Below, piece after piece: positions 8,652 through 27,319 of a stretch of DNA of 64,000 nucleotides (positions within the stretch are counted from its first letter, which is position 1; each line of letters starts with the position of its first letter). The translations under genes were made by a program, and so were the position numbers. This DNA comes from an uncultured Flavobacteriales bacterium (GTDB lineage: Bacteria > Bacteroidota > Bacteroidia > Flavobacteriales_G > Salibacteraceae), in the NCBI GenBank assembly GCA_943788725.1, contig CALSRJ010000003.1, forward strand, positions 124,001 to 188,000. Direction: 5' to 3'. Under the pieces are notes generated by a model, which searched no databases, was not told the DNA's origin, and saw only the letters and a program-made list of their open reading frames with translations.

Positions 8652-8686
8652 AAAAAAAAAGCGCCCCTCTTGAGGGGCGCTTTTTA
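8652..8686 (-). terminator. Intrinsic terminator after T9SS gene A (A/T-flanked, could act both ways)
   Basis: GCGCCCCTC and GAGGGGCGC form a perfect stem (8661-8669 with 8672-8680) flanked by an A-run and a T-run. It lies about 20 bases beyond the stop codon of the gene at 8707-12906. The same GCGCCCC/GGGGCGC hairpin follows genes B, C and D. Confidence 0.85.
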
Positions 8687-8706
8687 TAGAACTATGATGA
8701 AGTTGA

Positions 8707-11700
8707 TTACTGAACGATCAACTGCTTCATTTGTGTGTCAGCGTCGGTTGCAACTTTCACGATGTACGCACCAGCAGCGAGGCCGCTTACGTTGATCTCG
8801 TGGTTATTGCTTCCAGCGCTCATTACAGCTTGAGCTACTGTTCTTCCGCTCATGTCGAGGATGAGGATAGATCCTGCATCAACGTCCTTGGTCGCGATGG
8901 TCACTACATCGTTTGCAGGGTTAGGGAAGATAGCAAACTCACCTGCTTTGAGGTCTTCGATACCTACTGAAGGCTGGATCACTTTAGTTGCGATGTCCAC
9001 ACCACAACCGTTGTTGATCTCCAAGCTCACGGAGTAAGAAGCTGGATTAGATGGGCTAGACCATGGGTAAACCACTGTCTCCATCACGTTGGTAGAAGTA
9101 GCAGGACTTGCTCCAGCACCAAAGTTCCAGTTCACCGTACTTGTAGAAGTCAAGTAAGGCGAAGAGCTCGCATCAAATACGTAGATAAATCCACTGTATG
9201 TTGGGTTTGTGATGACTGCTTCAGGAGCTTCCAACACAACCACTTCAAACGAATCTACAGAAGAACATCCGTAAGAATCGGTAGCAGATACGGTGTAAGC
9301 ACCGGCATCGTTGAAGGTATTCACAGCATTGGTTGGGGCAGCGCCACCAGACCATGCATATGTAGTACCGTTAGCGATGGTAGCATCCAAGGTCAATGGA
9401 AGGTCGTCAGAACAAACTTCAGTTCCGATGATCTCAACAGCTTCAGACTGAGTAACTGCAGTAGTAGCAGAACTCACGCAACCCATTACATCTTTGGTTA
9501 CTGTGTATGTACCTGGCTCATCGATAACGATGGTTTGGGTCATAGCACCTGTAGACCAAGTGTAGCTTCCAGAAGAAAGTCCGCCTGGATCGAGGGTAGC
9601 GTTCTCATCGGCACAGATGTGCAGCATGCTATCCAAGTTTGCGTTTGGTACCAAAGTAATCAACGCGTTGTCAGAAGCAGAACCGCAATACTCGGTCTGG
9701 ATGCTTACCAATACGTTGTACGTAGTAGCCTCAGTTCCACCGGTGAGGGTGAGGGTAGGGGCAGTACTAGAGTTACCATTCACACTCCAAGTTACACTCT
9801 GAGCAGGACCAGCTTCGATGGTCACTTCATCAGCACAGTAAGTAGAATCACCACCAAGGGTGAAGCTAGCAGGAGAAACCCACTCAACGGCTCCGATGTC
9901 AGGCGTGTTCATGCTTCGCATGTTGCTGTCGATGTCATACATGGCTACACCGCTGTTCGTTCCAGCGTTGTCCATTGTATCGTTACAAGTAACACAAGCA
10001 AGGGTATCAACCCAAGCTGGATCAGTACTTATACCGTCAGCGTCAAAGCCAGTACCGTTTTGGTAATCTTCCAAGTTAGAGTAAGCAGAGCTTCCGTGGT
10101 AAACGAGCGTTCCGCCGTTTGAGTAGAAGTTGTTGTTCTCAGACTCAGATACAGTGAAGCCGTCTGCATAACGAGCATAGCCGTTGTTGTAGTCAGCCAA
10201 ACTGTTGTTCTTCATAGATACTAGACCTCCAGCGTTGAACTGAGAAGTGTAGTATCCATTGTTACCACCGCGACGCGTCACGGAGTTGTTGTGGAAGTTG
10301 TACAAACCACTGTAGTATGAATACACACCGTAGTAACCGTAAGAGGTACTTCCCTCAACACCTACGTTAATACAGTTGTTTGCAACCATACTGCGTGGGT
10401 TGTTGGAACCGATACACTGATACAAGTACAGGCCATAGGCGTATCCACCGTAAGAACCATTTGTTACATCAGAACCGATGTAGTTACCCGAAATGTTGAA
10501 ATTGTCAACATAGTAACAGTAAACAGCACGAGGACCGTAGGGATACAGGTTGGAATCATTGTCCACAACGTTGTTGTTGAACTCTAATCCATCGATGTAA
10601 TACAAGTAGTTCGCGAAGTAGTATGCATCGTGTAGTTGGTTGTTTTCAACCGTCACGTTTTCAACGCGTGCCGTATTACTACCACCATATACGTACAAAC
10701 CATACCCACCTTTCTCGATTAAGTTATTGGTCAAGGTAAGGTTGTGGTTTTGACCGTATGCATACACTGCAGTCAAAAGGTTTCCAGTGTAACCATACTC
10801 ACCAGCGCGGATGTGGCAACCGTCGAAGGTTACGTTTTCAGCGCCATTTACGATGCGAACAGCAGTAGCGTAGTAGAACGTACCGTTGTTACGAATCGTA
10901 ACATCATTGAAGTTCACATAGTCAGAACCATCTAATAGAACAACTTGGTTATCAGAAGAGCCAAGCGTAGTGTAGTTGATGATTACATCAGCAGCGTTAC
11001 CCGTTGTGCTTGTCCAAGTCAAAGTACCATCAGGTCCTGATCCTACGAACTCACCTAGTGAGATCTGCTCTGTATAGGTTCCAGGAGAGATATTCATCAC
11101 AACATCTCCACAAACACCCTTCGCCATTACGTCTGCAGCAGCAGCTGTCAATGTTGCGTAGTCGTTAGGAATGCTGTATGTACCCTCCAAACCAGCGTAA
11201 AGCATTACAGATGCTGTATCGTTGGTAGCGTTACTGTCTTGAACACCGTTTGGCATAGAAGACCAAACCTTCACCTCGTCACCATCCACAAAGCTGGTAG
11301 TAGAAACAAGTGTAAGGGTAGTGTCACCACCTACAGGGATGCTACCGCTGAACGCCATCGTAGTAACTACTGAGCCATTCAAAGCATAAGTGATCGTGCA
11401 AGATGTCAATGGAACGAGTCCAGTGTTGGCAAGCGTTGCGATCACAGTAGTATCATCAGAACAAAGTGGAGCATCTGGCTTCACGAGGTCAGAAATACCT
11501 GCGTTGTTGGTAGGAACGACAAACTCATCAGCTCCAGGGTCTGGAGTTGAGCTTCGCGCTTCACCATCAAAGTCATCGTTCACATTGGTGTTCACACCCA
11601 TGTTGTCAATCACCAAAGCCGACTGAGATGGGTTGATGTGGAAGTCACCACTGCCTACGAAAGGAACTTCTGTGATGATTCCGTTGGACTCACCACCGCC

Positions 11701-12906
11701 AACGGCAGAAGACAACGCAGAAAGAGACGTGACCTGACCAGAAGAATACGTGTAAACATACATCTCGCCGCCGTGGAAGTCATAGACGTTACCATCTAAG
11801 GTGTCAAAAAATGTAGTGTTCACATTGTAGGCGTAGTAGTAAGCATTGTAACCGTATCCCTGTCCATCATTGGGGTTGTGCAGGATGTTGTTCATCACTG
11901 TGTTTCCACCATACGAGTATGAGTAGTTGTACATCATCAAGTTGTACCCACCGTAACCAGATCCTTCAGAAGAGATGGTGTTGTGCTTGATGTCTAGGTT
12001 ACCAGAATAGTAGGTATACATTCCATAGTCGTAGTACAAGTTGTTTCCAGCGCTTCTGATGAAGTTGTTCTCGATGCGTGTTGGGTTGCCTGTTGTACCA
12101 TAGTGATAGTAGACCATCAATCCATAGTTGTAGCCATATCCATTTCCTTCGATGTCATTACCGAGGATGCTGTGGCCACTACCGTAGTAGATGTAAAAAC
12201 CATATCCGTAGTAAGAAGTAGAACCATCTCCAGCAGAGATGTGGTTGCCTTCCCAACGCGTGTCGTTACAGTTGTACAAGTACACACCATAATAGTACGT
12301 GTCATGGATATCGTTGTTTGTAAACACGAGATCATCAGAATAGCCAATGTAAACTTGGCCGTTGGTAATCTCGTTTCCGTCGAACACAACGTTGTTGCTG
12401 TTCGTGAAATACGCATAAATCGAAGCGTAGTAGTTTGACGTAGATGTGGTGCCGTAAGCGATGATCTTGTTGTTTTCAAACAAGATGTTCGTGTTAGTAC
12501 TCGCCAAATAGATAGTACGGTTATACGCTCCAGTTGCCTCGAAAGTCAGACCTGAGAAGGTGACGTTCGTAGTTCCATCAATACGAAGGGTGTGGCTGAA
12601 GAAGGTGTTTGACGCCAACTTAGCTTCTCCCGTATTCGATGGGTTTGCTTGGAAAGTAACCGTGTTTGTGGTAGATGAACCAGGAATGGCGTCCAACTGG
12701 ACGTTCTCATTAAAGGTGTCATCCGACACGTTCATTGTAACGGCACCGTTGACCCCGCTTGTTTCGAGGGCGGTAACCGCAGCGTTCCAGGTTGTAAAGT
12801 TGGTCGGCCCGGAACCGTTGGGGTCAATCGTATAGGTACCACTCAACTGAGCGAAACCGGATAACGAAGCAACCCCTACCATAAGAGATAGTAGAACTTT
12901 TTTCAT
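8707..12906 (-). CDS. T9SS-exported beta-helix surface protein, paralog A
   Basis: 1399 residues. Signal peptide MKKVLLSLMVGVASLSGFAQ. Then a first parallel beta-helix (about 25-440) rich in Tyr, Asn and Gly; a CARDB-like domain (about 465-570, starting NNAGISDLVKPDAPLCSDD); a second beta-helix (about 580-1000) with repeated N-N-x-x units; a PKD/Ig-like region (about 1030-1300); and a T9SS type A sorting domain (FAIFPNPANDVVTIAT to the end). It should leave through Sec and then the T9SS and be displayed on, or released from, the surface. An adhesin or matrix role is an inference; no catalytic motif was seen. It is almost identical to paralog D over long stretches and to paralog B in the last 530 or so residues. 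Confidence 0.9.
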   Translation of the reverse strand: MKKVLLSLMVGVASLSGFAQLSGTYTIDPNGSGPTNFTTWNAAVTALETSGVNGAVTMNVSDDTFNENVQLDAIPGSSTTNTVTFQANPSNTGEAKLASNTFFSHTLRIDGTTNVTFSGLTFEATGAYNRTIYLASTNTNILFENNKIIAYGTTSTSNYYASIYAYFTNSNNVVFDGNEITNGQVYIGYSDDLVFTNNDIHDTYYYGVYLYNCNDTRWEGNHISAGDGSTSYYGYGFYIYYGSGHSILGNDIEGNGYGYNYGLMVYYHYGTTGNPTRIENNFIRSAGNNLYYDYGMYTYYSGNLDIKHNTISSEGSGYGGYNLMMYNYSYSYGGNTVMNNILHNPNDGQGYGYNAYYYAYNVNTTFFDTLDGNVYDFHGGEMYVYTYSSGQVTSLSALSSAVGGGESNGIITEVPFVGSGDFHINPSQSALVIDNMGVNTNVNDDFDGEARSSTPDPGADEFVVPTNNAGISDLVKPDAPLCSDDTTVIATLANTGLVPLTSCTITYALNGSVVTTMAFSGSIPVGGDTTLTLVSTTSFVDGDEVKVWSSMPNGVQDSNATNDTASVMLYAGLEGTYSIPNDYATLTAAAADVMAKGVCGDVVMNISPGTYTEQISLGEFVGSGPDGTLTWTSTTGNAADVIINYTTLGSSDNQVVLLDGSDYVNFNDVTIRNNGTFYYATAVRIVNGAENVTFDGCHIRAGEYGYTGNLLTAVYAYGQNHNLTLTNNLIEKGGYGLYVYGGSNTARVENVTVENNQLHDAYYFANYLYYIDGLEFNNNVVDNDSNLYPYGPRAVYCYYVDNFNISGNYIGSDVTNGSYGGYAYGLYLYQCIGSNNPRSMVANNCINVGVEGSTSYGYYGVYSYYSGLYNFHNNSVTRRGGNNGYYTSQFNAGGLVSMKNNSLADYNNGYARYADGFTVSESENNNFYSNGGTLVYHGSSAYSNLEDYQNGTGFDADGISTDPAWVDTLACVTCNDTMDNAGTNSGVAMYDIDSNMRSMNTPDIGAVEWVSPASFTLGGDSTYCADEVTIEAGPAQSVTWSVNGNSSTAPTLTLTGGTEATTYNVLVSIQTEYCGSASDNALITLVPNANLDSMLHICADENATLDPGGLSSGSYTWSTGAMTQTIVIDEPGTYTVTKDVMGCVSSATTAVTQSEAVEIIGTEVCSDDLPLTLDATIANGTTYAWSGGAAPTNAVNTFNDAGAYTVSATDSYGCSSVDSFEVVVLEAPEAVITNPTYSGFIYVFDASSSPYLTSTSTVNWNFGAGASPATSTNVMETVVYPWSSPSNPASYSVSLEINNGCGVDIATKVIQPSVGIEDLKAGEFAIFPNPANDVVTIATKDVDAGSILILDMSGRTVAQAVMSAGSNNHEINVSGLAAGAYIVKVATDADTQMKQLIVQ

Positions 12907-13126
12907 ATGAATTAAAATTTAATTAATTGTGGGGCAATTTAGTCCATCATAAATCCATATTCGTCGATGGAAAGTATAAGTAGGAGGGTATTGTTGAAGA
13001 GCTTTTATTCCAAAATTTTCTTGAATCCACTCTTGCGCGATTAATCCATAGATGAATGTGTGTTATTCATAGACGAAACTATGAATTGATGTATGGCATA
13101 CCCCCTGATTCTTGAACTCTTAAAAA
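12907..13126. other. Intergenic region upstream of gene A
   Basis: About 220 AT-rich bases between the terminator of gene B and the start of gene A. It should hold the promoter of gene A. The best -7 candidate is a weak TAAATTG (one T short of TAnnTTTG), about 35 bases before the ATG. A perfect 8-base inverted repeat lies at 13065-13086. Nothing else was recognised. Confidence 0.5.
13065..13086. promoter_or_regulatory. Perfect inverted repeat, possible operator upstream of gene A
   Basis: ATTCATAG, six bases, CTATGAAT: a perfect 8-base dyad about 160 bases upstream of the gene A start. It is not followed by a T-run, so it is not a terminator. It could be a regulator binding site or a chance palindrome in AT-rich DNA. 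Confidence 0.3.
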
Positions 13127-13155
13127 CAAAAGCGCCCCAAAGAGGGGCGCTTTTT
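13127..13155 (-). terminator. Intrinsic terminator after T9SS gene B
   Basis: GCGCCCC (13132-13138) pairs with GGGGCGC (13144-13150) around a 5-base loop, with flanking A- and T-runs, about 22 bases past the stop codon of gene B. Confidence 0.85.
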
Positions 13156-14790
13156 ACAGAACTATGATGAAGTTGATTACTGAACGATCAACTGCTTCAT
13201 TTGTGCGTTGGCGTCAGTAGCAACTTTCACGATGTACGCACCAGCAGCGAGGCCGCTTACGTTGATTTCGTGGTTATTGCTTCCAGCGCTCATTACCGCT
13301 TGAGCTACTGTTCTTCCGCTCATGTCGAGGATGAGGATAGATCCTGCATCCACGTCCTTGGTCGCGATGGTCACTACATCGTTCGCAGGGTTAGGGAAGA
13401 TAGCAAACTCACCGGCTGCTAGATCATCTACACCTGTAAGGGTAGGAGCTACAACCTTAGTTGCGATGTCTACACCACAACCGTTGTTGATCTCCAAGCT
13501 CACAGAGTAAGAAGCTGGATTAGCTGGGCTAGACCATGGGTACACCACTGTCTCCATCACGTTGGTAGAAGTCGCAGGACTTGCTCCAGCACCAAAGTTC
13601 CAGTTCACCGTACTTGAAGAAGTCAAGTAAGGAGAAGAACTCGCATCAAATACGTAGATAAATCCACTGTAAGAAGGAGTTGTGATAACCGCCTCAGGAG
13701 CTTCCAACACAACCACTTCAAACGAATCTACAGAAGAACATCCGTAAGAATCGGTAGCAGATACGGTGTAAGCACCGGCATCGTTGAAGGTATTCACAGC
13801 ATTGGTTGGGGCAGCGCCACCAGACCATGCATATGTAGTACCGTTAGCGATGGTAGCATCCAAGGTCAATGGAAGGTCGTCAGAACAAACTTCAGTTCCG
13901 ATGATCTCAACAGCTTCAGACTGAGTAACTGCAGTAGTAGCAGAACTCACGCAACCCATTACATCTTTGGTTACTGTGTATGTACCTGGCTCATCGATAA
14001 CGATGGTTTGGGTCATAGCACCTGTAGACCAAGTGTAGCTTCCAGAAGAAAGTCCGCCTGGATCGAGGGTAGCGTTCTCATCGGCACAGATGTGCAGCAT
14101 GCTATCCAAGTTTGCGTTTGGTACCAAAGTAATCAACGCGTTGTCAGAAGCAGAACCGCAATACTCGGTCTGGATGCTTACCAATACGTTGTACGTAGTA
14201 GCCTCATTTCCACCGGTGAGGGTGAGGGTAGGGGCAGTACTAGAGTTACCATTCACACTCCAAGTTACACTCTGAGCAGGACCAGCTTCGATGGTCACTT
14301 CATCAGCACAGTAAGTAGAATCACCACCAAGGGTGAAGCTAGCAGGAGAAACCCACTCAACGGCTCCGATGTCAGGCGTATTCATGCTTCGCATGTTGCT
14401 GTCGATGTCATACATGGCTACACCGCTGTTTGTTCCAGCATTGTCCATTGTATCGTTACAAGTAACACAAGCAAGGGTATCAACCCAAGCTGGATCAGTA
14501 CTTATACCGTCAGCGTCAAAGCCAGTACCGTTTTGGTAATCTTCCAAGTTAGAGTAAGCAGAGCTTCCGTGATAAACGAGCGTTCCGCCGTTTGAGTAGA
14601 AGTTGTTGTTCTCAGACTCAGAAACAGTAAAGCCGTCTGCATAACGAGCATAGCCGTTGTTGTAGTCAGCAAAGCTGTTGTTCTTCACAGAAACAAGACC
14701 TCCAGCGTTGAACTGAGAAGTGTAGTATCCATTGTTACCACCGCGACGCGTCACGGAGTTATTGTGGAAGTTGTACAAACCACTGTAGTA
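13127..14790 (-). repeat. Direct repeat, 3' third of gene B (pairs with gene A 8652 to about 10320 and gene D 23067 to about 24735)
   Basis: This segment aligns with the 3' end of gene A at an offset of 4470 to 4473 bases and is nearly identical by eye, including the terminator. Upstream of about 14790 gene B diverges sharply from A and D while keeping the same domain plan, marking a recombination or conversion boundary. Confidence 0.8.
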
Positions 14791-17373
14791 GGAATATATA
14801 CCGTAGTAACCGTAAGAAGTAGAACCTTCTTTACCTACATTGATGCAGTTATTAGAAAAGGAGCTGCGCGGATTGTTTGATCCGATACACTGGTACAAGT
14901 AAACGCCGTATGAATAACCTCCATATGCGGAATTGTATTCTGCATCGGTGCCAATGTAATTGCCTGTTACGTTGAAATTATCTACGTAGTACAAATACAA
15001 ACCATAAGGAGACACATAGATGTTTGTGTCATTGGTCACAACGTTGTTATTGAACTCGAATCCATCAATGTAATAGATATACGTCTGCAGGTAATATGCG
15101 TTCTTGATGATGTTGTTATTGATAACGATGTTCTCTTGACGAGATGTGTTACCACTACCTTGTAAGAAAAGGCCGTATCCACCATAAAGAATCTCACTGT
15201 TAGTAACAGTCAGGTTGTGATTGTTTCCTACAGAATACAACGGCGATAAGTTAGAACTGGTGGTTGGGTATGTACCTGTCTTAAGGATGCAATGATCAAC
15301 CGTTATGTGTTCCGCACCTCCATCCAATCTCAAAGCAATACCATTGGTTGAGGTGGTGTTGTTGTGGATGGTCAGGTCCTGAAAGGTCACCCAATCTGAA
15401 CCGCTCAACTGAACCACATTCGCTGTCGTGCTGTACTGGATTTTCACGTCTGAAGCGTTTCCGCTTGAGCTGGTCCAAGTGAGTGTGGCATCTTGATCCG
15501 CACCAAGGATTTCACCCAGGGTGAATTGCTCATTGTACGTTCCGCTATTGATTTCCATCACAACATGTCCACAAAGTCCTTTCAACATCACATCAGCTGC
15601 TGCATCTGTGAGGGTGGCGTAGTCATTCGGAATGTTGTAAGTTCCGGTAAGCCCGGAGAAGATTTGAACGCTGACGGTGTCATAGGCCGCGTTAGAATCT
15701 ACGACGCCATTTGGCATTGAAGACCAAACCCGAATCTCGTCTCCACTAGAAAAGCTAGTGCTTCCGAGGATAGTCAGGGTTGTGTCATCTCCAACAGCTA
15801 GACTTCCAGAATAAACAAAGTTGGTTTGAATCGTGCCGTTCAACTCATAGGTGATGGTGCATGATGTAAGTGGAACCAAACCTGTGTTTTTCAGAACAGC
15901 TACTACAGACGTATCGTCTGAACAAAGTGGAGCATCAGGAGCGATCAGTTCGTCAATTCCGGCATTATTAGTTGGAACACTGAACTCATAACATCCTGGG
16001 TCAGGAGTCGTCAAACTGCGCGCAAGTCCATCGATGTCCTGGAGGACACCAACTGGTTCTGCGATATCGTTCACTGCAACCGCTTGCGGGGTCAAGTTGG
16101 TGGCAGAAGTGAACGAAGGATCTTCACACACTGCGCCTGGATCGCTTGATGAGGCAGTTTGCCAAGCGGGTACGGTCGAATAACTTCCGAGACCGGCGGC
16201 ATAAATGTTCACGTTGTTTCCAGAGTTTGCATAGTAGACGTTATCGGCCATGTCCAAATAACTTCCTCCGTTGTACAAGTAGATTGAGTAGGAGCTAGTT
16301 CCTGCCGTACTTACGATGTTGTTCTTATACTCATTACCTGCGCCTGAGTATGTAAAGTACATGTACGCACCATAGCTTCCAGCGTAGTTGTTCGTGATAT
16401 TGGTGGTGTTGTGGAATATCTTGTTATAATAACCATAGCCCATCCGAAGACCGTACTGTGAGTAGGCAGGTTGAGACAGATAGGTAATGGAGTTGTTGGT
16501 CACCATAACAGGATCCGTGCTGGTTCCTTCTGCGTAGTAAGCCAAGACACCATAACCGTAGTTGGTCGGTGAAAGCTCAAATCGGTTACCTGAGATGTTG
16601 GTTCCTGCGCCAGAATAATAACAGTACAGACCATAAACACTAGAGTTAGCCCCAGAATCGTGAACGTAGTTGTTTGTAAATGTGACTTTAGGATACGCCT
16701 GGTAACCGTAGAGATAGCCTGACATATAGTAGAAGTTCGAAAATTCACATTCGTTGAACGTTAGTTCGGATCCCGTAGCGCCATAATAGCAATAGCCGTA
16801 AACGCTGTAATACCCACCGTCGATTTGACAGCCATCAAATGAAACTTTCATTTGACCACCGTAATAACCGTACATGTAAACAGGGTACTGACCAGAGCTA
16901 TAGGTTGGAACCTGAATCAAGCAATCTTCAAAGTTGATATCAGTGTACGAATAAGACGTGCTGTAGTATGGGTACAGACGCACACAATAAGTACTGGTAC
17001 CGACCAAATCCAATTCACGGAAGGTGATATTGTTCAAACTTCCATTCTGCATGTTGATCACGTAACTCGAAGAAGTAATCACCGGATTGCTAGTGTTACT
17101 AGCCGCACTTTGAAAAGTGATGTTGTTAGTGGAAGAGGTACCACTAATAGAGGTAGGGAATGTCACCGATTCGGAATAGGTTCCTTGGGTAACGTTAAAC
17201 GTAACGGCACCACTCACCCCGTTAGCACCTAGTGCAGAGACTGCAGCGCTAAAAGTTTGAAAGTTGGTACCACTAGTTGCTGCGCCTGAGTTGATCGTGT
17301 ATGTTCCATTCAGCTGTCCGAATGAAATTACCGAAATCAACCCCAACGCTACTGAAAGTAGAGTTTTTTTCAT
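13177..17373 (-). CDS. T9SS-exported beta-helix surface protein, paralog B
   Basis: 1398 residues from the ATG at 17373, which begins the signal peptide MKKTLLSVALGLISVISFGQ; a longer frame to 17409 adds only untypical residues. The domain order matches paralog A: Tyr-rich beta-helix, CARDB-like domain, second beta-helix, PKD/Ig-like region and T9SS type A sorting domain. The first beta-helix is unrelated in detail to that of A and D and very Tyr-rich (for example VYGYCYYGATGS). The C-terminal 530 or so residues are nearly identical to A and D, so this protein has an own front half on a shared back half. Role unknown; surface adhesin or matrix protein is the likeliest guess. Confidence 0.9.
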   Translation of the reverse strand: MKKTLLSVALGLISVISFGQLNGTYTINSGAATSGTNFQTFSAAVSALGANGVSGAVTFNVTQGTYSESVTFPTSISGTSSTNNITFQSAASNTSNPVITSSSYVINMQNGSLNNITFRELDLVGTSTYCVRLYPYYSTSYSYTDINFEDCLIQVPTYSSGQYPVYMYGYYGGQMKVSFDGCQIDGGYYSVYGYCYYGATGSELTFNECEFSNFYYMSGYLYGYQAYPKVTFTNNYVHDSGANSSVYGLYCYYSGAGTNISGNRFELSPTNYGYGVLAYYAEGTSTDPVMVTNNSITYLSQPAYSQYGLRMGYGYYNKIFHNTTNITNNYAGSYGAYMYFTYSGAGNEYKNNIVSTAGTSSYSIYLYNGGSYLDMADNVYYANSGNNVNIYAAGLGSYSTVPAWQTASSSDPGAVCEDPSFTSATNLTPQAVAVNDIAEPVGVLQDIDGLARSLTTPDPGCYEFSVPTNNAGIDELIAPDAPLCSDDTSVVAVLKNTGLVPLTSCTITYELNGTIQTNFVYSGSLAVGDDTTLTILGSTSFSSGDEIRVWSSMPNGVVDSNAAYDTVSVQIFSGLTGTYNIPNDYATLTDAAADVMLKGLCGHVVMEINSGTYNEQFTLGEILGADQDATLTWTSSSGNASDVKIQYSTTANVVQLSGSDWVTFQDLTIHNNTTSTNGIALRLDGGAEHITVDHCILKTGTYPTTSSNLSPLYSVGNNHNLTVTNSEILYGGYGLFLQGSGNTSRQENIVINNNIIKNAYYLQTYIYYIDGFEFNNNVVTNDTNIYVSPYGLYLYYVDNFNVTGNYIGTDAEYNSAYGGYSYGVYLYQCIGSNNPRSSFSNNCINVGKEGSTSYGYYGIYSYYSGLYNFHNNSVTRRGGNNGYYTSQFNAGGLVSVKNNSFADYNNGYARYADGFTVSESENNNFYSNGGTLVYHGSSAYSNLEDYQNGTGFDADGISTDPAWVDTLACVTCNDTMDNAGTNSGVAMYDIDSNMRSMNTPDIGAVEWVSPASFTLGGDSTYCADEVTIEAGPAQSVTWSVNGNSSTAPTLTLTGGNEATTYNVLVSIQTEYCGSASDNALITLVPNANLDSMLHICADENATLDPGGLSSGSYTWSTGAMTQTIVIDEPGTYTVTKDVMGCVSSATTAVTQSEAVEIIGTEVCSDDLPLTLDATIANGTTYAWSGGAAPTNAVNTFNDAGAYTVSATDSYGCSSVDSFEVVVLEAPEAVITTPSYSGFIYVFDASSSPYLTSSSTVNWNFGAGASPATSTNVMETVVYPWSSPANPASYSVSLEINNGCGVDIATKVVAPTLTGVDDLAAGEFAIFPNPANDVVTIATKDVDAGSILILDMSGRTVAQAVMSAGSNNHEINVSGLAAGAYIVKVATDANAQMKQLIVQ

Positions 17374-17596
17374 GATAAAATAATTTGATTTGATACCAAA
17401 GTATAGCATGAAAAGGTGGCGTGCATCCTTTGTGATGAGCGATGTTGGGTGGATTATAGGTCCAATTTTTTCGCTGTGATTGAAAGGGGATTCGAGATAG
17501 TCACAACCCCATCGACCAATAGTCTTATTTGATAGAGGAATGTTTAATCAGATACAGAAGGTAGCGCCTTAATCTTGTATTCTTATGGGATAGGAT
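17374..17596. other. Intergenic region upstream of gene B
   Basis: About 220 bases holding the leader and presumably the promoter of gene B. The nearest -7-like sequence on the minus strand is TATACTTTG (one base too long for TAnnTTTG), about 20 bases before the ATG, without a clear -33 TTG. No small ORF or RNA was recognised. Confidence 0.4.
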
Positions 17597-17630: not shown

Positions 17631-17647
17631 AGGAAAAACATGATTAA

Positions 17648-19375
17648 TTATTCAATCACAAGTATTGCTTGACCGTCGACATTCGACACATCACGGATGC
17701 TCAATATATATGTCGCGGGTTCAAGATGAGAAAGATCGAATTGGAGGAGGTTACCCGCTATTGGGTTGGTTTCGCTCCAAATCAAACGGCCTTGCAAATC
17801 ACTGATGTATAGTTCCGAGATGCTGGGTGTTGCTGTATTTAGCTCAATGCTAAATATGCCTTGACTAGGGTTTGGATACACAATCAAGCTGGATGTGTTA
17901 TCATCCGAAATGCCAGTAGGCCAGCAACTGACAAAATTCACCTTGACCGTATCACCGCCGGTGCAGCCGTTCGCGTCGGTTACGATGACCGAGAAGTTTT
18001 GAGCCCCCACCGGTATACCATAGCCTCCAATGAGGATGTTGCTCGTGGTTTCGCCCGTGTTCCAATTATAAAATTGGAATTGACTTCCAGCCGCAAGTAC
18101 AGCAGTTTCGCCTTCTTCTACACAGAGGGTCACATTGGGGCCGAGGTCGATGGAAGGGGATGGGTTGATGGTTACTTCCACTTCTTCGATGGTTTCACAG
18201 CCCTGTGCACTTTCTACAGTTACGGAATAGAACCCGGAGCTCGTTACGAAGATCGATTGCGTGGTTTCTCCAGAACTCCATAAGAAGGAGGCTCCAGTAT
18301 TTCCTGCGTCCAACACCAGGTCGTCGCACGCTGAAGTGTCTCCCCCTAGGTCAACAACTGGCGAGGGAAACTCTGTCACCAATGCTGTGGAAGAGTCTTG
18401 ACAACCAACATAATCCGTTACGGTGACTGAATAAGACCCGCCTTGCGTGATTTGAATCTGTTGGGCCGTGGACCCCGTACTCCATAAGTATCCGCTGAAA
18501 CCTGGATCGGCTTGTAAGATGAAGAATTCACCTTCACACATATCTTGGTTGTCCAAGGTTATTTCAGGATTAGGAGCCACTAAGTCAAACGTCAACGTAT
18601 CGTTGTCATTGGAGGTGTCAGCTACGTTGTTGGGCAGCGTCGTCCAAACTTTTAGTGAGATGGAATCCTCAAAGAAATAGTTACCCAAGGAGACAGTCGC
18701 TGTATCCGTTCCACTACCGCCAGCTGTATCCAAAACACCAGAATAGGTAACGGGAGTTTGCACTGTTCCGTTTATCGACCATCCTAAGGTTACCGGCGTA
18801 ATTTGATTGATGCCAAAGTTTTTAATCCGTACAGATACTTCGGCTGAGTCCGCGCAAAAGTCACCTGAGGGATTGAGGATTTCGTCCACACCGGCATCGT
18901 TGGAAGCGGAAATAGGGGCTGAAAAATTCGTAATGGTGGCGACAAAAGTTCCGCAGCAACCATCGAAGGTTTCTCCGTAAAAAGCAAAGGGTTGTCCTTG
19001 GCTTACCGAGATTGAAGTTGTACCCGACTGCGTTATATCAGTTAACTCAGTGTAGGTGTTGTTGTACCAATATCCAAATCCATCGTAGCCAGGATCTTGA
19101 TGTGCTACACTCCACGAAAAACTCAAAGTACCCGTAGCGGGAAGTGTAATCTGATAACGTGTCCATGCCTGACCAGAGACATTGTCTGGCCCGGTGAGTG
19201 CGATACTCGTCGGTGCGCTATTCGCATTCACGGAGCCATTGGCTCCACTTACTTGAATAGTAGACCAGTTGCCAGGGTCGTAGCTGCCGCTGAATTGAGC
19301 CTCTGCAGTGGTGTATATAAAACAGGACACGCTTAAGAAGAGCATCCTAAAGTATAAGGGTAGTGCCGGATTCAT
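17648..19375 (-). CDS. T9SS-exported multidomain surface protein (CARDB/PKD type)
   Basis: 575 residues. Signal peptide ends at AEAQ near residue 27; an internal start at residue 11 (19345) is also possible. An N-terminal all-beta domain (about 28-155) is followed by a CARDB-like domain (about 158-270), three PKD/SprB-like repeats carrying the motif Y-L/N-W-S/N-T-G-x-T (about 272-490) and a T9SS type A sorting domain (VYPNPSQGIFSIEL to the end). It lacks the beta-helix of its neighbours and shares no long DNA identity with them, so it is a relative by architecture, not a recent duplicate. Likely surface-exposed; binding partner unknown. It has its own terminator. Confidence 0.87.
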   Translation of the reverse strand: MNPALPLYFRMLFLSVSCFIYTTAEAQFSGSYDPGNWSTIQVSGANGSVNANSAPTSIALTGPDNVSGQAWTRYQITLPATGTLSFSWSVAHQDPGYDGFGYWYNNTYTELTDITQSGTTSISVSQGQPFAFYGETFDGCCGTFVATITNFSAPISASNDAGVDEILNPSGDFCADSAEVSVRIKNFGINQITPVTLGWSINGTVQTPVTYSGVLDTAGGSGTDTATVSLGNYFFEDSISLKVWTTLPNNVADTSNDNDTLTFDLVAPNPEITLDNQDMCEGEFFILQADPGFSGYLWSTGSTAQQIQITQGGSYSVTVTDYVGCQDSSTALVTEFPSPVVDLGGDTSACDDLVLDAGNTGASFLWSSGETTQSIFVTSSGFYSVTVESAQGCETIEEVEVTINPSPSIDLGPNVTLCVEEGETAVLAAGSQFQFYNWNTGETTSNILIGGYGIPVGAQNFSVIVTDANGCTGGDTVKVNFVSCWPTGISDDNTSSLIVYPNPSQGIFSIELNTATPSISELYISDLQGRLIWSETNPIAGNLLQFDLSHLEPATYILSIRDVSNVDGQAILVIE

Positions 19376-19451
19376 AGTGATGGATGGTTAGTAGTGAAAA
19401 GTTGATTCAAGTTAAGCTAAATTATTGATTCTAAGATGAAAAGCTTTGGAG

Positions 19452-19484: not shown

Positions 19485-19505
19485 ATAGAACTATGATGAA
19501 GCTGA

Positions 19506-22500
19506 TTATTGAACGATCAGCTGCTTCAATTGTGTATTCGCGTCGGTTGCAACTTTCACGATGTACGCACCTGCAGCAAGGCCGCTTACGTTGATCTCGT
19601 GGTTGTTGCTTCCGGCGTTCATAGGAGCTTGCCCTACGGTTCTTCCGCTCATGTCGAGGATGAAGATAGATCCTGCGTCCATATCCTTGGTCGCGATGGT
19701 CACTACATCGCTTGCAGGGTTAGGGAAGATCGCAAACTCACCAGAAGCGAGGTCTTCAACACTCAATGGATCTGGAGCTACAATCTGCGTAGTGATGTCG
19801 ACACCACAACCGTTGTTGATCTCCAAGCTCACAGAGTAAGAAGCTGGATTGCTTGGGTTACTCCATGGATACGTTACGGTCTCCATTACATTGGTAGAAG
19901 TAGCGGGTGATGCTCCAGCACCGAAGTTCCAGCTCACTGAGCTAGATGACGTGAGGAAGGTAGAAGAACTAGCATCGAAGATGTAGATCGTTCCACTGTT
20001 GCTCACTACGCTGATCACAGCGTCAGGCTGCTCAAGCACAACCACTTCGAATGAATCCACTGAAGAACATCCGAAAGCATCCGTAGCAGTTACTGTGTAG
20101 GCACCAGCATCGTTGAAGGTATTCACAGCATTGGTTGGGGCAGCGCCACCAGACCATGCATATGTAGTACCGTTAGCGATGGTAGCATCCAAAGACAACG
20201 GAAGGTCGTCAGAACAAACTTCAGTTCCGATGATCTCTACTGCTTCAGATTGCGTTACCGCTGTAGAAGCAGTGCTCACACAACCCAATACATCCTTGGT
20301 AACTGTGTACACACCAGGTGCATCCACTACGATGGTTTGGGTAGCAGCGCCTGTAGACCAAGTGTAGGTACCGGAGGTAAGCCCACCTGGGTTGAGGGTA
20401 GCCGTTGCATCAGCACAGATGTGCGTAGCGCTATCCAAGTTCGCGTTTGGTACCAAAGTAATCAACGCGTTGTCAGAGGCAGAACCGCAAAACTCGGTCT
20501 GAATGCTCACCAATACGTTGTAGGTAGTAGCCTCACTTCCACCTGTCAAGGTGATGGTAGGAGCAGAGCTCGAGTTACCGTTTACACTCCAAGTAACGCT
20601 CTGAGCAGGACCTGCTTCAAGGGTTACTTCGTCAGCACAGTAAGTTGAATCACCTCCAAGGGTGAATGCAGCAGGAGAAACCCACTCAACCGCTCCGATG
20701 TCAGGAGTGGCAGTGCTGCGCATGTTGCTATCGATGTCATACATCGCAACCGAAGCTGTGCCTCCTGCGTTGTCCAAGGTGTCGTTACAAGTAATACACG
20801 CCAGGGTATCAACGTAGGCTGGGTCAGTACTGATTGAGTTCAGGTCGTAACCGCTGCCAGCTGCGTATTCTTCCACAGTCGAGTAGTTGGTGTTGTTGAA
20901 GCGAACAACAGTACCGCCATTTGTATAGAAGTTGTTGTTGTCAGATGCGTTCAAAGACCAAACACCATTGACATACATCCATATCCATTGTTGTAATCAG
21001 CAAAACTGTTGTTACGAACAGTAATGGCGCCTCCAGCATTGATGTAGAAGGTGTAGTAGCCATGATTACCACCTCGACGGGTCACCGAGTTGTTGTGGAA
21101 ATCTAGGTTGCCACAGCTATCCGAGGTATGCGCCATAGTAGCCATAAGAAGTGGTGCCTTCCGCGCCAGCATTGATACAGTTGTTGGCAATCATGCTCTT
21201 TGGATTGGCACTACCCAAGCAGTAGTACATGTAGAATGGATAGCCGTATCCACCGTAAGATCCAGAGGTCACATCAGAACCGAAGTAGTTACCGGTGATG
21301 TTGAATTCATCCGTGTAGTAACTCATCATGGCACGTGGGCCATACGGATAAAGGTTAGAATCATTGTCAACCACGTTGTTGTGGAATTCATATCCCTTTA
21401 CATAGTACGTATAGACACCATAGTAATACGCATCGTGTAGGTGGTTGTTTTCAATTACCACATCTTCAACTTGCGACGTGGTGCTACTCCCCCACAGGTA
21501 AAGACCGTATCCACCTTTTTCAATGATGTTGTTGGTCAATGTCAAGTTGTGGTTTAGACCGCTAGCGTACACTGCAGAAAGTTGGTTTCCTGTATATGGA
21601 TACTCAGCTGCACGAATGTGACAATTGTCGAACGTCGCATGCTCAGCGCCTCCTTCGATACGCACGGCAGTTCCGTAGATATACGTCGCGTTATTTCGAA
21701 TGGTCAGGTCTGTGAAACTAACCCAGTCAGAGCCATTCAAATACACCACGTAGTTGTCGGTTGAACCGGTGGAAGCATAAGCGATGGTTACGTCGTTCAT
21801 GTTGCCAGTAGCACTCGTAAACGTGACGGTAGCATCTTCGCTTACCCCGAGTACGTCACCAAGGGCAACTTGCTCGTTGTACGTTCCAGAATTGATTTCG
21901 ATTACCACATCATCGCAAACGCCGAATACGTTCAGCGCATCAGCAGCTTCTGTTAGCGTAGCAAAGTCCGAAGGAACGTTGTACGTACCGGAAAGACCTG
22001 AGGCTACTACCATGTTGGCAGTATCATTCACAGAAAGACTGTCTTGTGAGCCATTTGGGTTTTCTGTCCATACGGTCAATTCGTCGAAGTTGGTAAAGCT
22101 ATACGTAGCAATGACAACGGTGTCGGTTCCTCCTTGAGGTGCAACAGATCCAGAGAAGCTGTACGTGGTAGGTGTACCGTTTCCGATTTGCCACTTGACG
22201 TCACATGTGTTCAAGGTGTCTTGTCCAGCATTCTGAATGACCACTTGTACATCAATAGAATCCAAATCACACGTCGGGAGGGATGGGCTCAAGATAGCGC
22301 CGATTCCTGCATCATCCGCGTAAGGAGGAAGGATGGTGAATTGTGTTTGTGCACGGTAGTATCCAGTACCTCCGTATCCACCATTTGTTCCACAAATCGT
22401 TCCGGATGAAAGATCTTGATAACGACTGTATACCTTTCCGTAGTTGTAATCAGCGTATACTGCTCCATTGTAATAGAGGTAAGAACTGTTATCAAAACAA

Positions 22501-22946
22501 ACATCGATGACGAGATTGTCGGTTCCATTCCAAAGGAATGGGGTATTGAAGGTGTACGTTGTCCATCCGAGGGAAGATACGGTGTTCGTTACAGGACCGT
22601 AAACTTGCTCCAAGGTCGCAGGAGCATATCCACCAGCGATGCTGGTTGCTGACGTCGTGCCAATCGAGATCTTGAAGGAGCCCATTGGAAGACTTGGTAG
22701 CGTCGCCGAGTTAAAGGCTACAGCGCTAATAGATCCAGCATTTCCACCTGCAGCGATTATTTCGCTTGCCGTGTAGAGAAACTGGGTGCGGTCATCCATA
22801 TAATAGGTGCCGTAAGGCGAATCAGTAGTCGAATTCGTAGTAGTAGAACCGCTGCCAATCGTAAAGGTCTGTCCGATGGCTGTAGAGCCAATCATGCCAA
22901 ACACCCCAACCAACAAGGTCTTCATTAAAAAAGTAAATGTTCTCAT
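19506..22946 (-). pseudogene. T9SS-exported beta-helix surface protein, paralog C, with two compensating frameshifts
   Basis: One gene read in three pieces: frame one 22946-21117, a middle frame about 21125-20980, and the first frame again down to 19506. An extra C (plus-strand G at 21125/21126) shifts the frame. A missing base near 20980-20985 restores it. The middle piece (FHNNSVTRRGGNHGYYT, NNSFADYNNGY) matches the paralogs, so the intact protein would have about 1146 residues. It has a signal peptide, then a different N-terminal domain (about 27-205, GTYYMDDRTQFLYTASEIIAAGG) replacing the first beta-helix, followed by CARDB-like, beta-helix, PKD/Ig-like and T9SS sorting domains. Either two sequencing errors or a recently damaged gene. 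Confidence 0.8.
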
Positions 22947-23066
22947 ATGTAGTATGATTTAAATTAGGTAACGAAATTACTTAATAGACGGTTCAATTCC
23001 ACTTTAGTTTGTCACTAATTGATATTGGTCTTCTATAAATGGTGTTTCATCTGTGAAAGCTAGCAT
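22947..23066. other. Short intergenic region upstream of gene C
   Basis: About 120 AT-rich bases. A minus-strand TAATTTCG (one mismatch to TAnnTTTG) lies about 35 bases before the gene C start. A TTG upstream of it is only 14 bases away, shorter than usual, so the promoter is uncertain. Confidence 0.3.
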
Positions 23067-23097
23067 AAAAAAAGCGCCCCTCTTTGGGGCGCTTTTT
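23067..23097 (-). terminator. Intrinsic terminator after T9SS gene D
   Basis: GCGCCCC (23074-23080) pairs with GGGGCGC (23086-23092) with A- and T-runs on either side, about 23 bases past the stop of gene D. Confidence 0.85.
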
Positions 23098-23119
23098 ATA
23101 GAATTTATGATGAAGTTGA

Positions 23120-26100
23120 TTACTGAACGATCAACTGCTTCATTTGTGCGTTGGCGTCAGTAGCAACTTTCACGATGTACGCACCAGCAGCAAGGCCGCT
23201 TACGTTGATTTCGTGGTTATTGCTTCCAGCGCTCATTACCGCTTGAGCTACTGTTCTTCCGCTCATGTCGAGGATGAGGATAGATCCTGCATCCACGTCC
23301 TTGGTCGCGATGGTCACTACATCGTTCGCAGGGTTAGGGAAGATAGCAAACTCACCGGCCGCTAGATCAGCTACACCTGTAAGGGTAGGAGCAACAATCT
23401 TAGTTGCAATGTCAACACCACAACCATTGTTGATCTCCAAGCTCACGGAGTAAGAAGCTGGATTAGATGGGCTAGACCATGGGTAAACCACTGTCTCCAT
23501 CACGTTGGTAGAAGTAGCAGGACTTGCTCCAGCACCAAAGTTCCAGTTCACCGTACTTGTAGAAGTCAAGTAAGGCGAAGAGCTCGCATCAAATACGTAG
23601 ATAAATCCACTGTATGTTGGGTTTGTGATGACTGCTTCAGGAGCTTCCAACACAACCACTTCAAACGAATCTACAGAAGAACATCCGTAAGAATCGGTAG
23701 CAGTTACTGTGTACGCACCAGCATCGTTGAAGGTATTCACAGCATTGGTTGGGGCAGCGCCACCAGACCATGCATATGTAGTACCGTTAGCGATGGTAGC
23801 ATCCAAGGTCAATGGAAGGTCGTCAGAACAAACTTCAGTTCCGATGATCTCAACAGCTTCAGACTGAGTAACTGCAGTAGTAGCAGAACTCACGCAACCC
23901 ATTACATCTTTGGTTACTGTGTATGTACCTGGCTCATCGATAACGATGGTTTGGGTCATAGCACCTGTAGACCAAGTGTAGCTTCCAGAAGAAAGTCCGC
24001 CTGGATCGAGGGTAGCGTTCTCATCGGCACAGATGTGCAGCATGCTATCCAAGTTTGCGTTTGGCACCAAAGTAATCAACGCGTTGTCAGAAGCAGAACC
24101 GCAATACTCGGTCTGGATGCTTACCAATACGTTGTACGTAGTAGCCTCACTTCCACCTGTAAGGGTGAGGGTAGGGGCAGTACTAGAGTTACCATTGACA
24201 CTCCAAGTTACACTCTGAGCAGGACCAGCTTCGATGGTCACTTCATCTGCACAGTAAGTAGAATCACCACCAAGGGTGAAGCTAGCAGGAGAAACCCACT
24301 CAACTGCTCCGATGTCAGGCGTGTTCACGCTTCGCATGTTGCTGTCGATGTCGTACATGGCAACAGAGGTGTTCGTTCCAGCGTTGTCCATTGTATCGTT
24401 ACAAGTAACACAAGCAAGGGTGTCCACCCAAGCTGGATCTGTACTTATACCGTCTGCGTCAAAACCAGTACCGTTTTGGTAGTCTTCCAAGTCGGAGTAT
24501 GCAGAGCTTCCATGATAAACGAGCGTTCCGCCGTTTGAGTAGAAGTTGTTGTTCTCAGACTCAGAAACAGTAAAGCCGTCTGCGTAACGAGCATAGCCGT
24601 TGTTGTAGTCAGCGAAGCTGTTGTTCTTTGTAGAGACAAGGCCTCCAGCACGGAACTGAGAAGTGTAGTATCCATTGTTACCACCGCGACGCGTCACGGA
24701 GTTGTTGTGGAAGTTGTACAAACCACTGTAGTATGAATACACACCGTAGTAACCGTAAGAGGTACTTCCCTCAACACCTACGTTAATACAGTTGTTTGCA
24801 ACCATACTGCGTGGGTTGTTGGAACCGATACACTGATACAAGTACAGGCCATAGGCGTATCCACCGTAAGAACCATTTGTTACATCAGAACCGATGTAGT
24901 TACCCGAAATGTTGAAATTGTCAACATAGTAACAGTAAACAGCACGAGGACCGTAGGGATACAGGTTGGAATCATTGTCCACAACGTTGTTGTTGAACTC
25001 TAATCCATCGATGTAATACAAGTAGTTCGCGAAGTAGTATGCATCGTGTAGTTGGTTGTTTTCAACCGTCACGTTTTCAACGCGAGATGAAGTACCACCA
25101 CCGTAAATATACAGACCGTATCCACCTTTCTCGATCAAGTTATTGGTCAAGGTAAGGTTGTGGTTTTGACCGTATGCATACACTGCAGTCAAAAGGTTTC
25201 CAGTGTAACCATACTCACCAGCGCGGATGTGGCAACCGTCGAAGGTTACGTTTTCAGCGCCATTTACGATGCGAACAGCAGTAGCGTAGTAGAACGTACC
25301 GTTGTTACGAATCGTAACATCATTGAAGTTCACATAGTCAGAACCATCTAATAGAACAACTTGGTTATCAGAAGAGCCAAGCGTAGTGTAGTTGATGATT
25401 ACATCAGCAGCGTTACCCGTTGTGCTTGTCCAAGTCAAAGTACCATCAGGTCCTGATCCTACGAACTCACCTAGTGAGATCTGCTCTGTATAGGTTCCAG
25501 GAGAGATATTCATCACAACATCTCCACAAACACCCTTCGCCATAACGTCTGCAGCAGCAGCTGTCAATGTTGCGTAGTCGTTAGGAATGCTGTATGTACC
25601 CTCTAAACCAGCGTAAAGCATTACAGATGCTGTGTCGTTGGTAGCGTTACTGTCTTGAACGCCGTTTGGCATAGAAGACCAAACCTTCACCTCGTCACCA
25701 TCTACAAAGCTGGTAGTAGAAACAAGTGTAAGGGTAGTGTCACCACCTACAGGGATGCTACCGCTGAACGCCATCGTAGTAACTACTGAGCCATTCAAAG
25801 CATAAGTGATCGTGCAAGATGTCAATGGAACAAGTCCAGTGTTAGCAAGCGTTGCGATCACAGTAGTATCATCAGAACAAAGTGGAGCATCTGGCTTCAC
25901 GAGGTCAGAAATACCTGCGTTGTTGGTAGGAACGACAAACTCATCAGCTCCAGGGTCTGGAGTTGAGCTTCGCGCTTCACCATCAAAGTCATCGTTCACA
26001 TTGGTGTTCACACCCATGTTGTCAATCACCAAAGCCGACTGAGATGGGTTGATGTGGAAGTCACCACTGCCCATGAAAGGAACTTCTGTGATGATTCCGT

Positions 26101-27319
26101 TGGACTCACCACCGCCAACGGCAGAAGACAACGCAGAAAGAGACGTGACCTGACCAGAAGAATACGTGTAAACATACATCTCGCCGCCGTGGAAGTCATA
26201 GACGTTACCATCTAAGGTGTCAAAAAATGTAGTGTTCACATTGTAGGCGTAGTAGTAAGCATTGTATCCGTATCCCTGTCCATCATTGGGGCTGTGCAGG
26301 ATGTTGTTCATCACAGTGTTGCCACCATACGAGTATGAGTAGTTGTACAGCATCAAGTTGTAACCACCATAACCTGCTCCTTCAGAAGAGATCGTGTTGT
26401 GCTTGATGTCTAGGTTTCCAGAATAGTACGTGTAGATACCATAGTCATAGTACAAGTTGTTTCCAGCACTTCGAATGATGTTGTTCTCGATACGTGTTGG
26501 GTTACCTGAGGTACCATAGTGATAATAGATGCGCAGTCCATAGTTGTAGTAGGCCCCATTTCCTACAATCTCATTGCGAAGGATGTTGTGGCCACTGCCG
26601 TAATAGATGTAAAAACCATATCCGTAGTAAGAAGAACCCCCTCCAGCGGAGATGTAGTTGTCCTCCCAACGGGTGTCATCGGAGTTGTACAAGTACACAC
26701 CATAGTAATAGGTGTCATGGATGTTGTTGTTTGTGAAAACAAGGTCATCCGAGTAGTAAATGTACACCTGACCGTTCGTGATCTCGTTTCCGTCGAACAC
26801 AACGTTGTTGCTTCCTGCGAAAGACGAATAGATCGACGCGTAGTAGTTTGACGTAGAAGTAGTGCTGTACGCAATAATCTTGTTGTCTTCAAACAAGATG
26901 TTCGTATTGCTACTCGCCAAATAGATGGTGCGGTTGTACGCTCCAGTGGACTCGAAAGTCAGGCCTGAGAAGGTGACGTTCGACGTTCCATCAATACGCA
27001 TGGTGTGACTGAAGAAGGCATTGGATGCCAGTTTCGCCTCGCCAGTATTGGATGGGTTTGCTTGGAAAGTAACCGTGTTTGTGGTAGATGAACCAGGAAT
27101 GGCGTCCAACTGGACGTTCTCATTAAAGGTGTCATCCGACACGTTCATTGTAACGGCACCGTTGACCCCGCTTGTTTCGAGGGCGGTAACCGCAGCGTTC
27201 CAGGTTGTAAAGTTGGTCGGCCCGGAACCGTTGGGATCGATCGTATAGGTACCACTCAACTGAGCGAAGCCTGATAGCGAAACCAATCCTGCCACTAATG
27301 ATAGTAGAACTTTTTTCAT
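23120..27319 (-). CDS. T9SS-exported beta-helix surface protein, paralog D
   Basis: 1399 residues from the ATG at 27319, the start of the signal peptide MKKVLLSLVAGLVSLSGFAQ; a longer frame to 27388 runs through a good promoter and is rejected. Domain order as in paralog A: Tyr-rich beta-helix, CARDB-like, second beta-helix, PKD/Ig-like and T9SS type A sorting domain. Same length as A. Inside the sorting-domain linker it reads APTLTGVADLAAGEF, as in B, where A has QPSVGIEDLKAGEF. The protein is a mosaic of A and B. It has the clearest promoter of the family. Expected location: outer surface of the cell. Confidence 0.9.
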   Translation of the reverse strand: MKKVLLSLVAGLVSLSGFAQLSGTYTIDPNGSGPTNFTTWNAAVTALETSGVNGAVTMNVSDDTFNENVQLDAIPGSSTTNTVTFQANPSNTGEAKLASNAFFSHTMRIDGTSNVTFSGLTFESTGAYNRTIYLASSNTNILFEDNKIIAYSTTSTSNYYASIYSSFAGSNNVVFDGNEITNGQVYIYYSDDLVFTNNNIHDTYYYGVYLYNSDDTRWEDNYISAGGGSSYYGYGFYIYYGSGHNILRNEIVGNGAYYNYGLRIYYHYGTSGNPTRIENNIIRSAGNNLYYDYGIYTYYSGNLDIKHNTISSEGAGYGGYNLMLYNYSYSYGGNTVMNNILHSPNDGQGYGYNAYYYAYNVNTTFFDTLDGNVYDFHGGEMYVYTYSSGQVTSLSALSSAVGGGESNGIITEVPFMGSGDFHINPSQSALVIDNMGVNTNVNDDFDGEARSSTPDPGADEFVVPTNNAGISDLVKPDAPLCSDDTTVIATLANTGLVPLTSCTITYALNGSVVTTMAFSGSIPVGGDTTLTLVSTTSFVDGDEVKVWSSMPNGVQDSNATNDTASVMLYAGLEGTYSIPNDYATLTAAAADVMAKGVCGDVVMNISPGTYTEQISLGEFVGSGPDGTLTWTSTTGNAADVIINYTTLGSSDNQVVLLDGSDYVNFNDVTIRNNGTFYYATAVRIVNGAENVTFDGCHIRAGEYGYTGNLLTAVYAYGQNHNLTLTNNLIEKGGYGLYIYGGGTSSRVENVTVENNQLHDAYYFANYLYYIDGLEFNNNVVDNDSNLYPYGPRAVYCYYVDNFNISGNYIGSDVTNGSYGGYAYGLYLYQCIGSNNPRSMVANNCINVGVEGSTSYGYYGVYSYYSGLYNFHNNSVTRRGGNNGYYTSQFRAGGLVSTKNNSFADYNNGYARYADGFTVSESENNNFYSNGGTLVYHGSSAYSDLEDYQNGTGFDADGISTDPAWVDTLACVTCNDTMDNAGTNTSVAMYDIDSNMRSVNTPDIGAVEWVSPASFTLGGDSTYCADEVTIEAGPAQSVTWSVNGNSSTAPTLTLTGGSEATTYNVLVSIQTEYCGSASDNALITLVPNANLDSMLHICADENATLDPGGLSSGSYTWSTGAMTQTIVIDEPGTYTVTKDVMGCVSSATTAVTQSEAVEIIGTEVCSDDLPLTLDATIANGTTYAWSGGAAPTNAVNTFNDAGAYTVTATDSYGCSSVDSFEVVVLEAPEAVITNPTYSGFIYVFDASSSPYLTSTSTVNWNFGAGASPATSTNVMETVVYPWSSPSNPASYSVSLEINNGCGVDIATKIVAPTLTGVADLAAGEFAIFPNPANDVVTIATKDVDAGSILILDMSGRTVAQAVMSAGSNNHEINVSGLAAGAYIVKVATDANAQMKQLIVQ

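Follow-up and report, generated by a model that had tools for sequence, protein, structure and literature searches.

What history could leave neighboring genes with one common rear part and different front parts is the question raised by a gene array at positions 8652 to 27319 of the window analyzed here, a stretch of 64,000 nucleotides (bases 124001 to 188000 of the 753-kb contig CALSRJ010000003.1) from an uncultured Flavobacteriales bacterium with a genome of 2.93 Mb, in 7 contigs and 99% complete. A C-terminal chassis is common to four genes of the array, A, B, C, and D, all on the minus strand, whose products are predicted cargo of the type IX secretion system (T9SS). We read the array as a repertoire of T9SS heads on a shared chassis that is homogenized by intragenomic gene conversion, and we assign to this reading as a whole a probability of about 0.68. 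Its evolutionary part, namely, a chassis evolving in concert under heads that are inherited by type, is held with high confidence, and the odds that the fronts are binding heads, as their putative function would have it, are about even.

Layout of the array and domains of its proteins

The genes are transcribed from the minus strand in the order D (27319 to 23120), C (22946 to 19506), X (19375 to 17648), B (17409 to 13177), and A (12906 to 8707). The original prediction had placed four same-direction genes on one chassis within 19 kb, and both the gene coordinates and the domain layout bear this out for A to D, although a fifth sorting-domain gene, X, located between C and B, had been overlooked. 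The common rear of A, B, C, and D begins with an immunoglobulin-like (Ig-like) domain of about 105 amino acids (aa), here called CARDB-like, and continues with the chassis proper, which comprises a beta-helix of about 440 aa (beta-helix 2), two Ig-like domains (213 aa), a PKD-like domain (90 aa), and a sorting domain (85 aa). The genes and their parts are as follows.

8707-12906, minus strand: gene A, 1399 aa, with a signal peptide at the front
11509-12849, minus strand: gene A, front beta-helix F1
11194-11508, minus strand: gene A, CARDB-like Ig-like domain
9874-11193, minus strand: gene A, beta-helix 2
9235-9873, minus strand: gene A, two Ig-like domains
8965-9234, minus strand: gene A, PKD-like domain
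8710-8964, minus strand: gene A, T9SS sorting domain
13177-17409, minus strand: gene B, 1410 aa, likely Met at 17373
15970-17316, minus strand: gene B, front beta-helix F2
15655-15969, minus strand: gene B, CARDB-like domain
14347-15654, minus strand: gene B, beta-helix 2
13708-14346, minus strand: gene B, Ig domains
13438-13707, minus strand: gene B, PKD domain
13180-13434, minus strand: gene B, sorting domain
17648-19375, minus strand: gene X, 575 aa, T9SS surface protein with front F4 and a CARDB-like domain, without the beta-helix 2 chassis
19506-22946, minus strand: gene C, two open reading frames (ORFs) split by 1-bp shifts near 21120 and 20980
22317-22871, minus strand: gene C, front F3, a non-helix module of 185 aa
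22005-22316, minus strand: gene C, class II CARDB-like domain
about 20676-21998, minus strand: gene C, beta-helix 2
20037-20675, minus strand: gene C, Ig domains
19773-20036, minus strand: gene C, PKD domain
19509-19760, minus strand: gene C, sorting domain
23120-27319, minus strand: gene D, whose true start is the ATG at 27319, the TTG called by the ORF tool (27388) lying upstream
25925-27262, minus strand: gene D, front F1
25610-25924, minus strand: gene D, CARDB-like domain
24290-25609, minus strand: gene D, beta-helix 2
23651-24289, minus strand: gene D, Ig domains
23381-23650, minus strand: gene D, PKD domain
23123-23377, minus strand: gene D, sorting domain

Comparison of the fronts agrees with the types first proposed, that is, one beta-helix in A and D (F1, 91 to 93% aa identity to each other), another in B (F2, about 40% or less to A), and a different fold in C (F3). 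As for the other domain labels, those of beta-helix and sorting domain held, and PKD and Ig are weakly matched in Pfam. The CARDB label is without such support, the CARDB model giving no match at E 0.01 in the array proteins; on the basis of predicted Ig-like strands, the domain would be an Ig-like beta-sandwich. The sorting domain (TIGR04183/PF18962) scores above the curated cutoff in A, B, C (rear ORF), D, and X, and the N-terminal signal peptides, judged by eye in the translations, show a hydrophobic start and then a Q (e.g., MKKVLLSL..GFAQ). Furthermore, the same genome encodes a T9SS sortase (NF033707 match of 1209 bits, with a cutoff of 420) and about 91 sorting domains over the cutoff. 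Judging by these sequence signals, all five array genes encode type IX secretion substrates, for which a surface location is predicted.

Patchy identity and probable conversion tracts

The identity between copies in 100-bp windows spans 28% to 100%, and which two copies are most alike depends on the position in the gene. The patchiness of DNA identity claimed at the outset is therefore real, and a uniform divergence is ruled out, with different pairs being closest at different places. In a Sawyer/GENECONV-type permutation test with 2,000 shuffles (carried out with our own script and not with GENECONV itself), highly significant tracts, most of them with P=0, were found for the pairs A-D, A-B, and B-D, in the following regions.

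A 10237-11850, partner D 24653-26266, minus strand: A-D tract region, extending from the end of F1 across the CARDB-like domain into beta-helix 2, most of which it covers
A 9221-10098, partner B 13694-14571, minus strand: A-B tract region, covering the end of beta-helix 2 and the Ig domains, in pieces (P=0 to 0.0005)
B 13177-13449, partner D 23120-23392, minus strand: B-D tract region, covering the sorting-domain end, in pieces (P=0 to 0.004)

The A-D tracts at A 11127-10721, 10668-10237, and 11850-11429 gave P=0 of 2000, and the A-B region includes 513 identical bases at A 9733-9221. The silent-site divergence (dS) between A and B is saturated in the front and in the first Ig-like domain, amounts to about 1.0 in beta-helix 2, falls to 0.000 over the 213-codon Ig region, and then rises to 0.33 and 0.22. 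In the sorting domain, dS is 0.034 for D-B, compared to 0.27 for A-D. Since silent-site divergence drops as well, the patchiness is to be ascribed to the copying of DNA and not to protein constraint.

Two histories within one gene

The comparison was extended to related genomes, several of which are draft assemblies (handles starting with G; G000 is the genome of the window). In the tree of the CARDB-like domain, class I and class II, i.e., the copies with helix and non-helix heads, are split with a support of 99/95, and a single clade for the four copies of G000 is rejected (log-likelihood difference, 83.7; approximately unbiased test, p-AU 6e-88). The tree of beta-helix 2, conversely, groups the copies largely by genome (G000, 95/97; G011, 90/90; G001, 100/99) and rejects class II as one clade (p-AU 3e-39), which is likewise rejected in the tree built on the Ig domains, the PKD domain, and the C-terminal sorting domain (p 5e-4). 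The mean identities in the genus follow the same scheme: for the CARDB-like domain, 37% within a genome across classes versus 56% between genomes within a class, and for beta-helix 2 the reverse, 60% versus 48%. Individual fronts find counterparts in other genomes, F3 of C being 70% identical to G001 and F2 of B 56% identical to G012.

In most pairs, identity climbs toward the 3' end. Tract tests are also significant in G011, G012, and the single-contig genome G013; in G012 and G011, such tracts, together with high identity, also connect copies that do not lie at the same locus. In G012, copies on separate contigs share 92 to 99% identity in much of the region from the Ig domains to the sorting domain, compared to 42 to 79% in their fronts. 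Moreover, copy 4 of this genome is a mosaic, with a beta-helix 2 like that of the class II neighbor (100% over about 400 bases) and a region from the Ig domains to the sorting domain like that of the adjacent class I gene (mostly 78 to 94%).

Taken together, these data show that the head and the following Ig-like domain are inherited by type across species and that stretches of the chassis have been copied from one gene to another inside a genome, in several distinct tracts, resulting in concerted evolution. The switch point is the border between the first Ig-like domain and beta-helix 2, and homogenization is usually strongest toward the 3' end. The proposal that conversion, or an equivalent intragenomic recombination, keeps the C-terminal chassis uniform is thus upheld by the tracts, the silent-site identity, the conflict between module trees, and the recurrence in several species, the locus comparison having found the pattern again in G001, G011, G012, and G013.

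Several observations weigh on the other side. The support for the G000 clade in the tree of the Ig, PKD, and sorting domains is only 76/74, the PKD domain has no average within-genome excess of identity (55 versus 55%), G011 and G001 keep two distinct chassis classes in the Ig and sorting domains, and homogenization is weak in G004. Because of the distinct classes in G011 and G001 and of the PKD values, cross-class homogenization is not universal. Furthermore, the present data cannot separate conversion from unequal crossing-over plus duplication; since copy number varies, both are likely to have operated. As far as function is concerned, fold comparison yields only generic beta-helix and jelly-roll matches.

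Two solo copies outside arrays, in G011 (L055:6126-9700) and G012 (L059:5295-8770), are about 89 to 90% alike over the first Ig-like domain and a beta-helix. This likeness is far above that of the array copies of the two genomes, and it is possible that solo copies evolve more slowly.

The site between alaS and ntrC

The array occupies a site with a conserved gene order, alaS-DUF5684-[array]-ntrC-ABC-dnaJ-grpE, and the elements that delimit it in the window are the following.

8016-8537, minus strand: DUF5684 gene, downstream flank of the conserved site, with alaS beyond
8656-8685, minus strand: intrinsic terminator of A
23066-23100, minus strand: intrinsic terminator of D
27503-28660, minus strand: response regulator/sigma-54 activator gene (ntrC), upstream flank of the conserved site

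Every copy is closed by its own terminator hairpin, at which the similarity between copies stops; it follows that the array genes look separately transcribed.

Matches to gene B at E 1e-30 occur in 9 of the 13 genomes of the genus, our own counted. The site holds one gene in G009, three in G004, four in both G011 and G012, and five here, including X. Since it is empty in G002, G003, and G008 (L073, L074, and L076), the array is a presence/absence locus with 0 to 5 genes in the genus. An apparent absence in G005, the closest relative found (ntrC, 94% aa identity), was discarded as an assembly gap, as an F1 gene is cut off after 80 aa by the end of one contig, and the final 27 aa of the chassis stand at the start of another (breaks at the L072 end and the G005:C18 start, L083). 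A second locus, beside a macB/hlyD-like operon, holds copies in G012 and G001. At the level of the family, the unit of beta-helix 2 and Ig domains is present in 22 of 35 genomes and 11 of 14 genera, often in tandem and in several cases beside alaS, and the heads include GEVED and MAM domains. In G013 (L099+L097+L098), five tandem copies, whose heads alternate as F3-like, MAM-like, F3-like, MAM-like, and another, lie between GTPase genes (era/engA-like) and metK, not at alaS. A gene of G006 at the alaS site (L060:3824-6061) has a CARDB-like domain resembling that of X.

Gene C was rightly recognized as a chassis gene in the original prediction, to which the split by two 1-bp indels has to be added as a correction. 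In the same window, the essential gene alaS (5402 to 8028) also carries a 1-bp shift, near 6808, that leaves it as two overlapping ORFs, while relatives have a single ORF of 870 to 875 aa, and this split is most likely an assembly indel error. For C, therefore, a sequencing error is as likely as decay. Frameshifted copies also occur in G012 (L049:5371-9508) and G011 (L052:9042-13239), one in each, with the shifts at different places.

Proposed mechanism and alternative explanations

In the mechanism that we propose, the chassis would serve as a stalk and as the secretion and anchoring unit, and each gene, with its own terminator, would display a different putative binding head, directed to surfaces, glycans, or particles. 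RecA-type homologous recombination between tandem, and sometimes distant, copies would homogenize the chassis, and the homogenized rear would let crossover duplicate or move heads, so that the site could gain and lose members (0 to 5 in the genus). Going one step further, we tentatively suggest, although we consider it somewhat doubtful, a family-wide head-exchange locus, in which the homogenized 3' chassis at a fixed site (alaS to ntrC in the genus) acts as a landing platform, and heads of unrelated folds (beta-helix, jelly-roll, GEVED, and MAM) are gained, lost, and remounted by homologous recombination to give species-specific head sets.

An alternative for the function, compatible with the conversion history, is that the beta-helix proteins are polysaccharide-degrading enzymes (lyases or hydrolases) and the array a glycan utilization set. 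The structure predicted for residues 20 to 1160 of B contains two well-modeled capped beta-helices, each with an N-terminal capping alpha-helix, and a poorly modeled rear, and the beta-helix fold is common to F1, F2, and the chassis helix. Their best fold matches are indeed beta-helix polysaccharide enzymes and phage tailspikes (PL6 alginate lyase, GH87, and LnbX). However, these matches are weak (template modeling [TM] scores by target of 0.2 to 0.5, with 9 to 13% identity) and generic to the fold, the helices have no enzyme relative by sequence among solved structures, and Pfam and NCBIfam give no enzyme family, only generic Beta_helix/NosD models and the sorting domain matching the array proteins. 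Moreover, many copies have, in place of the front helix, GEVED, MAM, or other modules for which no catalytic role is known. For F3 with the CARDB-like domain, the predicted structure has low confidence (mean pLDDT, 62), and its PDB matches (TM of 0.2 to 0.3) are to generic jelly-roll plus Ig folds. Fold matches of this kind do not settle the choice between adhesin and enzyme, and on balance we regard the enzymatic function as improbable.

Slightly less probable is a history of recent tandem duplications with later head replacement by illegitimate domain shuffling, without recurrent conversion. The varying copy number at the site would be expected from it, and identical sequence is concentrated in the rear, as though a young copy had received a new head. 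Nevertheless, successive segments are closest in A-D, then in A-B, and then in B-D, which fits no single duplication tree, and both the links between copies at different loci of G012 and of G011 and the independent recurrence in several species speak against such a history.

We give the same low weight to antigenic or phase-type variation, in which hypervariable fronts would be reshuffled to escape hosts, predators, or phages, with the uniform chassis as a by-product. The mosaic genes, the tandem layout, the differing fronts, and one interrupted copy are reminiscent of it, as is the link to variation of comparable Helicobacter pylori families (PMC3960876), and the original prediction had compared the varying fronts to those of surface antigen or adhesin families. 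On the evidence of their sequences, however, the fronts are a small set of old types with orthologues in other species; the front of A is of the same type as that of D, and omega between the two is 0.13, indicating purifying selection. In G013, segments with estimable dS gave omega values of 0.07 to 0.33, except for stubs of six codons or fewer. The antigenic variation reading is disfavored because the fronts are orthologous across species and under purifying selection. Signal peptide, sorting domain, and terminator are present in all copies, which argues against a silent archive; a pseudogene archive was accordingly rejected as a candidate, the shifts of the G011 and G012 copies lying, in addition, at different places. 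As regards invertible promoters, no inverted repeats flank a promoter, the only repeats found being terminator hairpins and a few imperfect intragenic ones.

Finally, that near-identical repeats were misjoined into chimeric genes is very improbable, for although the assembly probably carries indel errors, as the split alaS indicates, and G005 breaks exactly at the array, the window lies inside a 753-kb contig, the module tree conflict stands at the protein level and across species, and G001, G011, and G012 show the pattern as well, as does G013, a single-contig genome with five tandem copies and significant tracts.

Comparison with known systems

The original prediction knew of no described system with this layout, but H. 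pylori provides one in the babA/babB and homA/homB genes, whose 5' parts group with orthologues across strains and whose 3' parts group with the same-strain paralogue (PMC2795765 and PMC3960876). Copies of those genes can occupy several conserved loci and are under purifying selection overall, and the pattern has been attributed to intragenomic conversion (PMC2795765 and PMC3960876). The array shares with them the orthologous 5' and concerted 3' split and the significant conversion tracts. It differs in that its proteins are unrelated T9SS cargo and not outer membrane proteins, in that the split is seen between species rather than between strains of one species, and in that the variable parts are different folds rather than alleles. 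The Pfam and NCBIfam matches of the array proteins, limited to beta-helix and T9SS sorting-domain models, include no Hop/Hom homology; by analogy, the array behaves like bab/hom without belonging to the Hop/Hom family.

The nearest T9SS case of modular recombination, again by analogy, is that of RgpA, Kgp, and HagA of Porphyromonas gingivalis, which are likewise surface proteins exported by the T9SS and carry a sorting domain at the C terminus; they consist of combinatorial modules, and identical repeats are found both inside one gene and from gene to gene (PMC5266723). In P. gingivalis, it is the adhesin modules inside the proteins that are shared and rearranged, and strains exchange alleles, whereas in the array the entire rear is homogenized and the N-terminal head differs; moreover, no protease domain was found in the array proteins. 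The type A sorting domain (TIGR04183/PF18962) of the five genes defines only the export route and predicts neither the chassis nor its concerted evolution. The array also differs from its known counterparts in the conservation of its site across the genus and beyond. In the literature on conversion among T9SS paralogues, mostly open-access papers, we found only P. gingivalis and no description of this layout.

The array thus offers a clean and replicated example of T9SS surface proteins that evolve in concert over part of their length, the switch lying at a domain border, and it suggests a reason for the breaks of draft genomes at this site. It is also a warning that orthologues of such proteins should not be called from the rear part, and it shows that a layout known from a host-adapted pathogen need not imply immune evasion. 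A natural set of heads on one chassis may, in addition, be useful to probe what the heads bind.

Additional observation in the window

After the citrate synthase gene, the window contains an ORF of 973 aa (59723 to 62644) with no Pfam match at E 1e-4, at the end of which the scan of our own genome recorded a subthreshold T9SS sorting domain (G000:C3:186405-186638).

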